DNA from: an uncultured Roseovarius sp.
GTDB lineage: Bacteria > Pseudomonadota > Alphaproteobacteria > Rhodobacterales > Rhodobacteraceae
Assembly: GCA_951812895.1 (NCBI GenBank)
Contig: OX638333.1
Location: 2,460,001-2,524,000, forward strand
Direction of reading: 5' to 3'
DNA: 64,000 nt
Below the pieces are notes generated by a model, which did not search any database, was not told the origin of the DNA, and saw only the letters and a list, made by a program, of their open reading frames with translations. The stretch's first letter is position 1. Each line of letters opens with the position of its first letter. This document shows positions 38,813-43,610 of this stretch, one piece after another. The translations under genes and the position numbers were made by a program.

Positions 38813-38951
38813 GTCAGAACAAGCGATTTCAGAGCTTTTCTGCCATCAAAACAGGCATGAATCGCTTGATTTTCCCGCTCCAACCCAATAAATGCGCGCG
38901 CAGTGACTAACGGGCCAGATGGCCCCCCAATTGAACAAGGTGCCCGGAGAT

Positions 38952-40127
38952 ATGGCTAAGGAAAAGTTTGACCGTTCGAAACCGCATGTAAACATCGGGA
39001 CCATTGGTCACGTTGACCACGGCAAGACGACGCTGACGGCGGCGATCACGAAATATTTTGGTGATTTCAAAGCGTATGACCAGATTGACGGCGCGCCTGA
39101 AGAGAAAGCGCGCGGGATCACGATCTCGACCGCGCACGTGGAATATGAGACTGAAAACCGCCACTATGCCCACGTCGACTGCCCCGGCCACGCTGACTAT
39201 GTGAAGAACATGATCACCGGTGCGGCGCAGATGGACGGCGCCATTCTGGTTGTGAACGCGGCTGACGGCCCGATGCCTCAGACCCGCGAGCACATCCTGC
39301 TGGGCCGCCAGGTTGGCATCCCGCACATGGTTGTCTACATGAACAAAGTTGATCAGGTTGACGATGACGAGCTGCTGGAACTGGTTGAGATGGAAATTCG
39401 CGAGTTGTTAAGCTCTTACGAATATCCTGGTGACGACATTCCTGTGATCCCGGGTTCAGCCCTGGCGGCGATGGAAGGCCGTGACGAAGCGATTGGCGAA
39501 GACAGCATCAAGGCGCTGATGGCGGCGGTTGACGAGTATATCCCGACGCCGGCACGCGCGATTGATCAGCCGTTCCTGATGCCGGTTGAGGACGTGTTCT
39601 CGATCTCTGGCCGTGGTACTGTTGTGACGGGGCGTGTTGAGCGTGGCGTGATCAATGTTGGTGACAGCATTGAAATCGTTGGTATCCGCGATACGAAAAC
39701 CACCACCTGTACCGGTGTTGAAATGTTCCGCAAGCTGCTGGACCGCGGTGAAGCGGGCGACAACATCGGCGCATTGCTGCGTGGTATCGACCGTGAAGGT
39801 GTTGAGCGCGGCCAGGTTCTGTGCGCGCCCAAGTCGGTGACCCCGCACACCAAGTTCGAAGCCGAGGCATATATCCTGACCAAGGAAGAGGGTGGCCGTC
39901 ACACGCCGTTCTTTGCCAACTACCGTCCTCAGTTCTACTTCCGTACGACGGATGTGACCGGTACTGTTGAGCTGCCTTCGGGCACCGAGATGGTGATGCC
40001 TGGCGACAACCTGAAGTTCACGGTTGAGCTGATCGCGCCGATCGCGATGGAAGACGGCCTGCGCTTCGCCATCCGCGAAGGCGGCCGCACCGTCGGCGCC
40101 GGCGTCGTCGCCAAAATTATCGAATAA
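38952..40127 (+). CDS. tuf: Elongation factor Tu
   Basis: A 391-residue EF-Tu, which delivers aminoacyl-tRNA to the ribosome. G1 GHVDHGKT, G3 DCPGHADY, G4 NKVD and the C-terminal beta-barrel domains are all present. ATG 38952 is the start ([10 protein letters not shown], with CGGAGA upstream); a frame extension from 38919 is not coding. A terminator and tRNA-Trp follow. No ribosomal protein genes or fusA are adjacent. Confidence 0.98.
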
Positions 40128-40288: not shown

Positions 40289-40364
40289 AGGGGTATAGCT
40301 CAGCTGGTAGAGCGACGGTCTCCAAAACCGTAGGTCGCGGGTTCGAACCCTGCTGCCCCTGCCA
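40289..40364 (+). tRNA. tRNA-Trp (anticodon CCA)
   Basis: A cloverleaf with acceptor AGGGGTA/TGCCCCT, D arm with CTCAGCTGGTAGAG, anticodon loop CTCCAAA (anticodon CCA), T arm CGGGTTCGAACCC, discriminator G and encoded CCA. It follows tuf, as in many alphaproteobacteria, but secE-nusG do not follow here. Confidence 0.97.
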
Positions 40365-40524: not shown

Positions 40525-40611
40525 TGGACGCCGCCCCGGCCCCGTCCTATAACGCGCCTCATGATGTACGCATCCGCGATCATTATTCGAATTATATGCC
40601 CGGCGCTCTGA
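40525..40611 (+). promoter_or_regulatory. Candidate ileS promoter and leaderless Ile-rich leader peptide
   Basis: TGGACG (40525-40530) - 17 nt - TATAAC (40548-40553) looks like a sigma-70-type promoter with the start point at about 40561. A 16-codon ORF begins at 40561: MMYASAIIIRIICPAL, five Ile codons of which one is the rare ATA, ending with TGA at 40609-40611. No ribosome-binding site precedes it, so it would be leaderless. A 10-bp stem (CCCGGCGCTC with GAGC[C]GCCGGG, 40599-40628) overlaps its end. No T-run terminator is seen. Confidence 0.6.
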
Positions 40612-40681
40612 CCGATCGAGCCGCCGGGACAAGGCGTATGGACCACCGCGCTGCCCCCATCGATATTTCCTGAAATACTCC

Positions 40682-40698
40682 GTGACAAAGGACGTCAC
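40682..40698 (+). promoter_or_regulatory. Hairpin with the ileS Shine-Dalgarno in its loop
   Basis: GTGAC - AAAGGAC - GTCAC. The loop holds the AAGGA ribosome-binding site of ileS (ATG 40701). The stem is short, but the placement could affect translation. Confidence 0.4.
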
Positions 40699-40700
40699 CC

Positions 40701-43610
40701 ATGTGTTCTGACACGCCCGACTACAAAGACACCCTGAACCTGCCACAAACCGATTTCCCGATGCGTGCTGGGCTGCCGAAACGAGAGCCTGAATGGCTCG
40801 AGCGGTGGAACAAACTGCGCATCTATACCCGTCTGCGCGATAAGGCAGAGGCGGAAGGAAACCGCGTGCCCTTTACCCTGCATGATGGCCCGCCCTACGC
40901 CAATGGCCACCTGCATATCGGACATGCGCTGAACAAGATCCTCAAAGACATGGTTGTGCGTTCGCAGCAGATGATGGGCAAGGATGCCCGCTATATCCCC
41001 GGCTGGGATTGTCATGGTCTGCCGATCGAATGGAAGATCGAAGAACAATACCGCAAGAAGGGCCGTAACAAGGACGAGGTTGACGTGGTCGACTTCCGCC
41101 AGGAGTGCCGCCGGTTCGCCGAAGGTTGGATCGACATTCAGCGCGACGAATTCAAACGCCTTGGTGTTACTGGAAAGTGGTCCAAACCCTACCTGACGAT
41201 GGATTTCCGGTCGGAACGGATCATCGCCGAGGAATTCATGAAATTCCTGATGACCAGCACGCTTTATCAGGGGTCCAAACCAGTGATGTGGTCGCCGGTT
41301 GAAAAGACTGCGCTGGCCGAGGCCGAGATTGAGTATCACGATCACAAATCACACACGATTTGGGTGCCTTTCGGTGTGCGCGATGGGGGTGGCGATCTGA
41401 CCGATGCCCGCGTGGTGATCTGGACGACCACACCCTGGACCATCCCGTCGAACAAGGCGGTCGCCTATCATCCGAAAATCGCTTACGGCCTTTACCGGGT
41501 CGATGCCACGGAAGAAGAGAGCTGGACCAATCCTGGAGATCTGTACCTGTTCGCTGATGCACTGGCTGACGACGCTCTGGCCAAATCGCGGGTGACTGAA
41601 TTCACCCGGATGCGCGATGTGGCGACCTCAGAATTCGAGGGCATGGTGCTGAACCACCCGTTTGCAGGCATGGATGAATCTGAAGGTTTCTGGGATTACG
41701 ACGTGCCGATGATCGACGGTGATCACGTGACTGACGAGGCCGGGACAGGTTTTGTGCACACCGCACCATCCCACGGCGCCGACGATTACGAGGCCTTTGT
41801 CAAACGCAACTGGATTGACCGGATGACCCACAATGTGGGCGAGGAAAGCGAATTCCTGCCCCATGTGCCGTTCTTCGCTGGCCTTCAGGTGTTTGACCGA
41901 AAGGGCAAAGAGGGCAAGGCCAACAACGCGGTAATCGCCAAGCTGGTCGAAGCCTATGGCATCATCGCCCGTGGCCGCATGACCCACAGCTATCCGCATA
42001 GCTGGCGCTCCAAAGCACCCATCGTGTTTCGTAATACGCCACAGTGGTTCGCCGCTGTAGACCGCGCTGTTGGCGACGGACAGGACGAATACGGCAAGAC
42101 CATCCGCGAACGTGCGCTCAATTCCATCGACCAGCTGGTGACATGGACGCCCCAGACCGGGCGCAACCGCCTCTATTCGATGATCGAAGCGCGGCCTGAC
42201 TGGGTTCTCTCACGCCAACGCGCGTGGGGCGTGCCGCTGACCTGTTTTACCAAGGCGGGTGCCCTGCCTACCGACCCTGATTTCCTGTTGCGGGATGAGG
42301 CGGTGAATGCCCGTATTCTTGAGGCGTTTGAGGCCGAAGGCGCCGATGCATGGTACAAGGACGGCGCCAAAGAGCGTTTCCTTGGCAATGACTATGACCC
42401 GGCTGAATGGGACAAGGTCGATGATATCCTCGATGTGTGGTTCGATTCCGGCTCAACTCATGCCTTCGTACTGCGCGACCGCGAGGACGGATCAGAGGAT
42501 GGTCTGGCCGATCTCTACCTCGAAGGCACCGATCAACATCGCGGCTGGTTCCATTCGTCGATGCTTCAGGCTTGTGGCACCCGAGGCCATGCCCCCTATC
42601 GCGGTGTGCTGACCCACGGCTTTACGCTGGATGAGAAGGGCAACAAGATGTCCAAATCTCTGGGCAACACAATTGTGCCTGATGCAGTTGTGAAACAATA
42701 CGGCGCCGATATCTTGCGCCTTTGGGTGGCGCAGACCGATTACACCAATGACCAGCGTATCGGCCCCGAGATCCTCAAAGGCGTGGCAGACAGCTATCGC
42801 CGACTGCGCAATACTATGCGCTTTATGCTGGGTGCGCTGTCCCACGCCAGCGACGCTGATCACGTGGAACCGGCGGATATGCCAGAGCTTGAGCGTTGGG
42901 TGCTGCACCGTCTGGCAGAGCTCGACCACCGGGTGCGCACCGGCTATGCGGCGTATGATTTTCAAGGTGTGTTTCAGGCACTGTTTAATTTCTGCACCGT
43001 TGAGCTTTCGGCATTCTATTTCGATATCCGCAAGGATGCACTCTATTGCGATGGCGACACACCGCGCCGCCGTTCGGCACGCACTGTCATGGACATTCTG
43101 TTCCACCGGCTGACAACATGGCTGGCCCCGGTTCTGGTGTTCACAATGGAAGATGTCTGGCTCTCGCGCTTTCCGGGTGAGGAAAATTCGGTCCACCTGA
43201 TCGACTTTCCCGAGACCCCTGCCGATTGGCTGGACGAGCCGCTGGCAGCAAAGTGGGCGCAGATCCGTCAGGCCCGCCGCGCTGTAACCGCGGCACTTGA
43301 GGTGCAGCGCACGGATAAGGTGATTGGTGCCTCGCTCGAAGCGGCCCCCATCGTGCATGTGCGTGATGCCGGGATGCTGGACATTCTCAAATCTGTTGCA
43401 TTCGAAGATATCTGCATCACGTCGGATATCGGCCTGACTAGCGATCCCAGCCCGGCAGAGGCGTTCCGCCTGCCAGAAGTGGATGGTGTCACGGTGGTGT
43501 TCGAAAAAGCCGAGGGTGAGAAATGCCAGCGCTGCTGGAAAATCCTGCCGGATGTCGGCAACCATACCCATGCGGGGACATGCGGGCGTTGCAACGAGGC
43601 ACTTGACTAA
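40701..43610 (+). CDS. ileS: Isoleucine--tRNA ligase
   Basis: A 969-residue class I synthetase that charges tRNA-Ile. HIGH signature in NGHLHIGHALNK, the CP1 editing domain, KMSKSLGN, and a C-terminal zinc finger (CQRCWKILPD ... CGRC). The length is normal for a bacterial IleRS. It is preceded by the candidate leader at 40561-40611 and followed by a long inverted repeat at 43643. Confidence 0.98.
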   Translation: MCSDTPDYKDTLNLPQTDFPMRAGLPKREPEWLERWNKLRIYTRLRDKAEAEGNRVPFTLHDGPPYANGHLHIGHALNKILKDMVVRSQQMMGKDARYIPGWDCHGLPIEWKIEEQYRKKGRNKDEVDVVDFRQECRRFAEGWIDIQRDEFKRLGVTGKWSKPYLTMDFRSERIIAEEFMKFLMTSTLYQGSKPVMWSPVEKTALAEAEIEYHDHKSHTIWVPFGVRDGGGDLTDARVVIWTTTPWTIPSNKAVAYHPKIAYGLYRVDATEEESWTNPGDLYLFADALADDALAKSRVTEFTRMRDVATSEFEGMVLNHPFAGMDESEGFWDYDVPMIDGDHVTDEAGTGFVHTAPSHGADDYEAFVKRNWIDRMTHNVGEESEFLPHVPFFAGLQVFDRKGKEGKANNAVIAKLVEAYGIIARGRMTHSYPHSWRSKAPIVFRNTPQWFAAVDRAVGDGQDEYGKTIRERALNSIDQLVTWTPQTGRNRLYSMIEARPDWVLSRQRAWGVPLTCFTKAGALPTDPDFLLRDEAVNARILEAFEAEGADAWYKDGAKERFLGNDYDPAEWDKVDDILDVWFDSGSTHAFVLRDREDGSEDGLADLYLEGTDQHRGWFHSSMLQACGTRGHAPYRGVLTHGFTLDEKGNKMSKSLGNTIVPDAVVKQYGADILRLWVAQTDYTNDQRIGPEILKGVADSYRRLRNTMRFMLGALSHASDADHVEPADMPELERWVLHRLAELDHRVRTGYAAYDFQGVFQALFNFCTVELSAFYFDIRKDALYCDGDTPRRRSARTVMDILFHRLTTWLAPVLVFTMEDVWLSRFPGEENSVHLIDFPETPADWLDEPLAAKWAQIRQARRAVTAALEVQRTDKVIGASLEAAPIVHVRDAGMLDILKSVAFEDICITSDIGLTSDPSPAEAFRLPEVDGVTVVFEKAEGEKCQRCWKILPDVGNHTHAGTCGRCNEALD

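Follow-up and report, generated by a model that had tools for sequence, protein, structure and literature searches.

The isoleucyl-tRNA synthetase gene in the window (the whole 64,000-nt stretch of Roseovarius sp. DNA analysed here) is preceded by a short leader ORF with a candidate promoter, two hairpins and a C-rich stretch (Table 1). The synthetase gene is an ORF that, from its sequence, we take to be ileS. Upstream of the leader promoter lie tuf (38919-40127, named from sequence) and tRNA-Trp (40289-40361); in many bacteria tuf and tRNA-Trp are followed by secE-nusG. The leader ORF reads ATG ATG TAC GCA TCC GCG ATC ATT ATT CGA ATT ATA TGC CCG GCG CTC TGA, and its Ile codons ATT and ATA come after CGA.

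Table 1. Features of the ileS upstream region, in window coordinates.
Feature	Position	Strand	Remarks
-35-like hexamer TGGACG	40525..40530	+	Read directly; 17-nt spacer to the -10 box
-10 box TATAAC	40548..40553	+	Read directly; ends 7 nt before leader ATG 40561
Leader ORF MMYASAIIIRIICPAL*	40561..40611	+	Leaderless by promoter spacing
Ile codons ATC ATT ATT preceding the core	40579..40587	+	Ile concentrated in frame 0
Nucleotide-conserved core CGA-ATT-A-N4-CCCGG	40588..40603	+	Control codon AUU at 40591-40593
Hairpin 1, CCCGGCGCTC / GAGCCGCCGGG	40599..40628	+	Arms 40599-40608 and 40618-40628 (one bulged base); leader stop codon TGA 40609-40611 between the arms
Hairpin 2, GGCG..CGCC type	40633..40655	+	Imperfect copy in the window, from fold
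C-rich, G-poor stretch	40656..40686	+	Possible Rho-loading region (inferred); 5' of the ileS ribosome-binding site
Shine-Dalgarno AAAGGA of ileS	40687..40692	+	Read directly
ileS, isoleucyl-tRNA synthetase, 969 aa	40701..43610	+	ATG at 40701

The first-pass annotation of this locus had described an ORF (40561-40611) with five Ile codons, a promoter (TGGACG-17-TATAAC) and a stem (40599-40628) with TGA in its loop, all of which are read directly. Its leaderless placement of the ORF agrees with promoter spacing, since the ATG follows the -10 box by 7 nt here and by 6-7 nt in 180 of 214 Rhodobacteraceae leaders (7 nt in 124, 6 nt in 56). The folding energy of the window leader was found to be unremarkable (z -1.19, with 24 of 200 shuffles equalling or exceeding it in stability), so the evidence for the leader is comparative.

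Conservation of the leader in Rhodobacteraceae

The Rhodobacteraceae set comprised 243 loci, 220 of them distinct by context; many were gathered by ileS similarity, and 80 were fetched out of 195 matched genomes. The Ile-rich short ORF that had been picked out in a single sequence is kept before ileS in 216 of the 220 distinct upstream regions, with the core at most 200 nt from ileS. Exact CGAATTA-N4-CCCGG is present in 200 of the 220 and a near form in 16 more. The four exceptions are a locus with an exact core further upstream (L349), one with CGAATCGCAGGCCCGG (L072), one with five N (L404) and one with a degenerate core (L086). The patterns used for this family demand ATT or ATA plus CCGG and so account in part for the invariance within the 216; less constrained measures of conservation are the 216 of 220 and, for ileS loci outside Rhodobacteraceae, 12 of 27.

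All 216 core-bearing regions have an in-frame leader start. In those with a matched -10 box the start is ATG (211) or GTG (3), and two of the 216 are without a matched box. The box is TATAA[G/C] in 191 of 214 leaders, and the 214 leader peptides are 14-20 residues long with a mean of 3.86 Ile. The leader stop is the seventh codon after CGA in 200 of the 216 regions. Within the ten codons before the core, Ile codons average 2.51 in frame, compared with 0.13 and 0.21 in the other frames. In an ungapped alignment anchored on the core, the values are 1.67-2.0 bits for columns 0-6 and 11-16 but 0.02-0.3 bits for columns -21 to -13 and +24 to +32; loop-length variation lowers those of the latter span. 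Kinship alone does not explain this conservation, given 1.67-2.0 bits in the core against 0.02-0.2 in columns -21 to -13. The Ile-rich leader ORF before ileS is real and conserved, and it is probably functional.

The choice of control codon does not follow the general usage of the window, whose 27 ORFs contain 357 AUC, 120 AUU and 46 AUA codons; yet the control codon is AUU. This bears on a nascent-chain arrest, in which the peptide R-I-x-x-P would stall the ribosome on a signal other than charging. The near fixity of I, P and A/V, with R mostly kept, could be read in this way, in part because the search pattern imposes it. However, a subgroup without CGA in the core has S, A, D, T or another residue in place of Arg, and the two x positions vary freely. 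Nor does an amino-acid constraint explain the use of AUU over AUC. We hold such an arrest to be most improbable.

Hairpin 1 was assessed in a 62-sequence alignment (nine sequences from Rhodobacteraceae), in which 92.9% of cells are paired; the value falls to 55.9-62.9% when the partner is slid by one column. Covarying stems had been named in the first-pass annotation as a mark of a genuine leader, and hairpin 1 has 84 double-changed cells against 28.1 (sd 5.0) in shuffles. Its base, CCCGG/CCGGG, is nearly invariant, and the covariation sits in the upper stem. For hairpin 2, the partners in 168 scored Rhodobacteraceae sequences were GGCG/CGCC (79), GGTG/CACC (47), crossed (22), other (17) and none (3), in a count where 26 of 194 sequences were unscoreable and the regex accepts whichever candidate partner comes first. 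The two sides of this helix tend to change together within the family. RNAalifold on the gappy Rhodobacteraceae alignment returned hairpin 1 only.

Pairing of the right arm of hairpin 1 with the left arm of hairpin 2 was tabulated and found to have no clear covariation support. More generally, the Rhodobacteraceae leaders gave no clear covariation for a competing fold or mutually exclusive antiterminator, and no predicted switch. A GUGAC..GUCAC hairpin around the Shine-Dalgarno (SD) sequence is present in the window and in only 11 of 216 Rhodobacteraceae members.

The core in other Alphaproteobacteria and the genes behind it

The core pattern was searched in 289 alphaproteobacterial genomes, with N3 and N5 as spacing controls for N4. 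Matches numbered 102 for N4, 32 for N3 and 22 for N5; the N4 spacing between A and CCCGG is strict in Alphaproteobacteria. An exact core at most about 520 nt upstream of ileS was counted, by eye from coordinates, in at least 36 of 161 genomes with an ileS match, 33 of them outside Rhodobacteraceae. Similarity of ileS was used to choose 27 ileS loci outside the family, of which 12 carry the exact core and 15 have neither it nor a synonymous Arg-Ile version (one of the 15 with only 112 nt upstream). The element is thus common, not universal, in the class. A covariance model (R1) built from the 62 sequences matches 93 of the 289 genomes, a figure that is partly by construction because the model was built from the sampled class. 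In 200 Pseudomonadota genomes, whose non-alphaproteobacterial share is not given, R1 had 30 matches: 29 in Alphaproteobacteria and one other with E 0.0096.

The reading frame was examined by asking for an ATG within 30 codons upstream and no intervening stop. Outside Rhodobacteraceae and without an ORF filter, such an ATG was in frame for 99 of 124 exact cores; the two other frames had one in 17 and 23. When the hairpin was required, the 87 exact cores outside Rhodobacteraceae gave 82 against 4 and 13, and in the filtered set described below the in-frame ATG is present in 75 of 76 sites against 2 and 12. Ile codons in the hairpin-required cores outside the family average only 0.87 in frame (0.31 and 0.21 in the other frames), so the long Ile run is special to Rhodobacteraceae. 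At the heart of the element is a single AUU codon whose nucleotide context is fixed; this combination is found more widely than Rhodobacteraceae and before other Ile genes too.

Could the conserved nucleotides be recognised directly as RNA? IleS or another RNA-binding protein might bind CGAAUUA and the CCCGG/CCGGG hairpin, with the frame being secondary. Core and stem base are invariant as nucleotides, synonymous positions included, and a regex search of the 27 ileS loci outside Rhodobacteraceae found no synonymous Arg-Ile version (0/27) beside the 12 exact cores. A factor-bound element of this kind is nevertheless unlikely: the frame is kept outside Rhodobacteraceae, Ile codons are enriched in the leader frame, the leader start sits at the promoter and the other targets are Ile genes.

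The genes behind the core were surveyed in 76 filtered class sites, which are no census. The sites were drawn from the first 30 loci of the N4 search, 80 picked N4 places and 27 loci of the ileS-similarity search. The 80 places were chosen for having no known ileS match beside them, or for being unknown in this respect, so that ileS is under-counted among the 76. From 113 distinct sites in L221-L330, those inside ORFs of at least 150 codons were dropped, except six kept by hand, as were those without five contiguous stem pairs. The next gene was ACT-like in 36, ileS in 30, AAA_33 kinase-like in 4, SnoaL-like in 3, threonine ammonia-lyase-like in 1 and unassigned in 2. Seven of the 76 sites precede kinase-like or unknown genes with no clear link to Ile, which counts against reading the core as an Ile sensor.

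The threonine ammonia-lyase-like gene matches Pfam PALP (9.8e-68), and its best NCBIfam match (1e-101) scores 340.5 bits against a cut-off of 496. A citramalate synthase lies behind one ACT-like gene (L223; NCBIfam 2.8e-133, 445 bits against a cut-off of 450, ORF cut by the locus end). Threonine ammonia-lyase and citramalate synthase both open isoleucine synthesis. The ACT-like product has about 95 residues, and its assignment is weak: Pfam ACT_5 was matched in 5 of 23 members (best E 0.0036), and a profile built from 23 of the same loci had one match in PDB, the acetolactate synthase III small subunit (E 0.62).

Several further features were observed around these genes. The ACT-like family has almost no Pfam coverage (L222, L225, L227, L241, L242, L253-L256, L258, L282, L284-L287, L292, L313-L315, L322, L325). 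In several loci the ACT-like gene is followed by a DUF4743/NUDIX-like gene, and in L254 by a HisZ-like gene. Tandem leader motifs about 180-200 nt apart stand before one ACT-like gene in L293 (296, 496), L295 (294, 494) and L298 (302, 484), and these tandem sites also carry TTTT. AAA_33 kinase-like genes behind the core (L276, L294, L297, L317, L448) have a short leader ending in RIxxPA*. Related proteins of about 175 residues, which we take to be SnoaL-like, are encoded behind the core in L239, L240 and L324; the L239 protein, the one scanned of the three, had no Pfam or NCBIfam match.

In L254, L262, L264, L269, L284, L286, L289, L315 and L330 no stop closes the leader frame after the core; it continues across the hairpin as far as roughly where the next gene begins, an arrangement suggestive of translational coupling. 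Several such frames lead toward an ACT gene start and Rhodobacteraceae are without a U-run terminator, both of which would suit a leader that senses no isoleucine and only tunes how the next gene is coupled in translation or how stable its mRNA is. This is very unlikely, as the leader is enriched in Ile and its targets are Ile-related. Because the leader is kept across Rhodobacteraceae and the core recurs in the class before other Ile genes, the leader is very probably a device by which ribosome stalling signals a lack of isoleucine.

Termination signals and output

The first-pass annotation had seen no U-run terminator in the window; the sequence bears this out, with no T-run after the stem, and it holds for the family: TTTT directly 3' of hairpin 1 was found in 0 of 189 Rhodobacteraceae sequences and TTT in 7, with TTTT somewhere before ileS in 36 of the 189. 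The Rhodobacteraceae ileS leaders thus lack the intrinsic terminator of the classical trp/ilv attenuator; another hallmark, a short ORF with codons for the pathway amino acid, is there as a predicted ORF in 216 of 220 regions. In a scan confined to hairpins of 26-74 nt, which left out most ACT-linked ones, TTTT lay within 10 nt of hairpin 1 in 4 of 31 ileS-linked sites, 6 of the 31 being from Rhodobacteraceae. U-runs follow hairpin 1 in L234, L445, L455 and L458; in the ileS leaders L445, L455 and L458 the run has 4-5 T and resembles that of an intrinsic terminator.

In Rhodobacteraceae, the sequence from hairpin 2 to the SD is C-rich and G-poor (C 0.42, G 0.18), with C exceeding G in 211 of 212, compared with 13 of 27 other upstream regions of the window. 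The first 30 codons of ileS also have C above G (216/216) by a smaller difference, so the leader is not the only part with a C bias. This stretch fits Rho, which is the preferred and most likely output in Rhodobacteraceae. A translational output had been the other option in the first-pass annotation. As a switch that sequesters the SD it was not seen, since predicted SD access was barely altered by masking of the left arm (0.453 vs 0.438 in 212 sequences). The predicted access of the C-rich stretch was likewise hardly altered by left-arm removal.

A proposed isoleucine-responsive leader and its relation to known systems

It is likely that ileS is controlled by a ribosome-mediated, isoleucine-responsive leader, in which the start site, stalling, masking, Rho and the direction of response are inferred. 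Transcription would start at the leader AUG or within one or two nt of it, and the peptide would be translated directly. With plentiful Ile-tRNA, the ribosome would reach the stop codon and leave, hairpin 1 would form and downstream expression would be held down. With scarce charged tRNA-Ile, the ribosome would wait at AUU in its A site, CGA occupying the P site. Hairpin 1 starts at +12 from the first base of CGA, and the footprint of the waiting ribosome would mask its left arm, CCCGG. A ribosome so placed, with a footprint of the usual size, would just reach over CCCGG; for this reason the stalled ribosome is itself proposed as the anti-attenuator, by which ileS expression would rise. In Rhodobacteraceae the C-rich stretch ahead of ileS would most likely be where Rho terminates transcription, and in a few other relatives hairpin 1 with a U-run would act as an intrinsic terminator. 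CGA is read by an inosine tRNA, which may, speculatively, slow the next step; the subgroup without CGA speaks against this idea. The invariance of the nucleotides exceeds what classical attenuation needs, which counts against the proposed leader mechanism. A more general reading is put forward tentatively, at somewhat under even confidence: CGA-AUU-A-N4-CCCGG would be a widespread alphaproteobacterial Ile sensor, in which one AUU gauges tRNA-Ile charging with the ribosome as anti-attenuator and which marks a regulon of ileS, ilvA, a citramalate synthase operon and the uncharacterised ACT-like protein.

Leaders of related kinds have been reported. The first-pass annotation knew of no described ileS attenuator in this group. 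An ileS leader CDS has in fact been named in Caulobacter crescentus (CCNA_03934), where a figure legend lists it as negative control (PMC4117421). Like the leader described here, CCNA_03934 is a small CDS before ileS in an alphaproteobacterium, from work in which ribosome profiling served to map CDSs; the account, in its accessible part, says nothing of a motif, of Ile codons, of a mechanism or of a wider family (PMC4117421). The Caulobacter ilvBN leader attenuator (Tarleton 1994, cited in PMC4117421) involves ribosome pausing at Ile/Val codons. It comes from the same bacterial class, and there pausing at leader Ile codons controls expression, as is proposed here. It differs in having a Rho-independent terminator and tandem Ile/Val codons (PMC4117421), whereas the Rhodobacteraceae ileS leaders have no U-run after the hairpin and a nucleotide-fixed AUU context. 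The leader ORF trpL (peTrpL) of Sinorhizobium meliloti is leaderless and begins at the transcription start, as is proposed for the ileS leader; it differs as a tryptophan attenuator of trpE (PMC10117765, PMC7298713). In Methylorubrum, a transcription start has been mapped 150 nt upstream of ileS with a -10 of TAGAAG (PMC9320726). L278 and L450, both taken as Methylobacterium-like from sequence only, have TAGAAG at 6 and 7 nt from the leader ATG, on its 5' side, and the distance from leader start to ileS is about 183 and 196 nt.

In Actinobacteria, ileS is preceded by translational T-boxes, which likewise exert at the RNA level the control by tRNA-Ile charging that is proposed here (PMC1262725). 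A T-box was not matched by Rfam in the window and nine loci, where only tRNA-Trp reached the gathering score; at E<=5 there was one chance lncRNA match, which is not a T-box. The T-box RNA binds the tRNA itself and has no leader peptide, in which it differs from the ileS leader. The portions of PMC2965389 and PMC4833913 at hand hold nothing on ileS leaders of Alphaproteobacteria. No description of the core element was found in the literature searched; Vitreschak 2004, Lopatovskaya 2010 and Tarleton 1994, known from citations, may contain parts.

Leader-peptide attenuation is already known as a kind of regulation, and what is new is the unusually fixed core. As a rule, sequence searches have difficulty in finding leader peptides, since little of them is kept but the amino-acid run. 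If the proposal is true, this attenuator would be recognisable by sequence and searchable by pattern or covariance model. It also raises a testable question: why is AUU required as control codon, flanked by CGA and A and at a distance of exactly 4 nt from a GC hairpin? Finally, the core would point to an isoleucine regulon in many Alphaproteobacteria, and an uncharacterised ACT-like gene family would gain a likely pathway.
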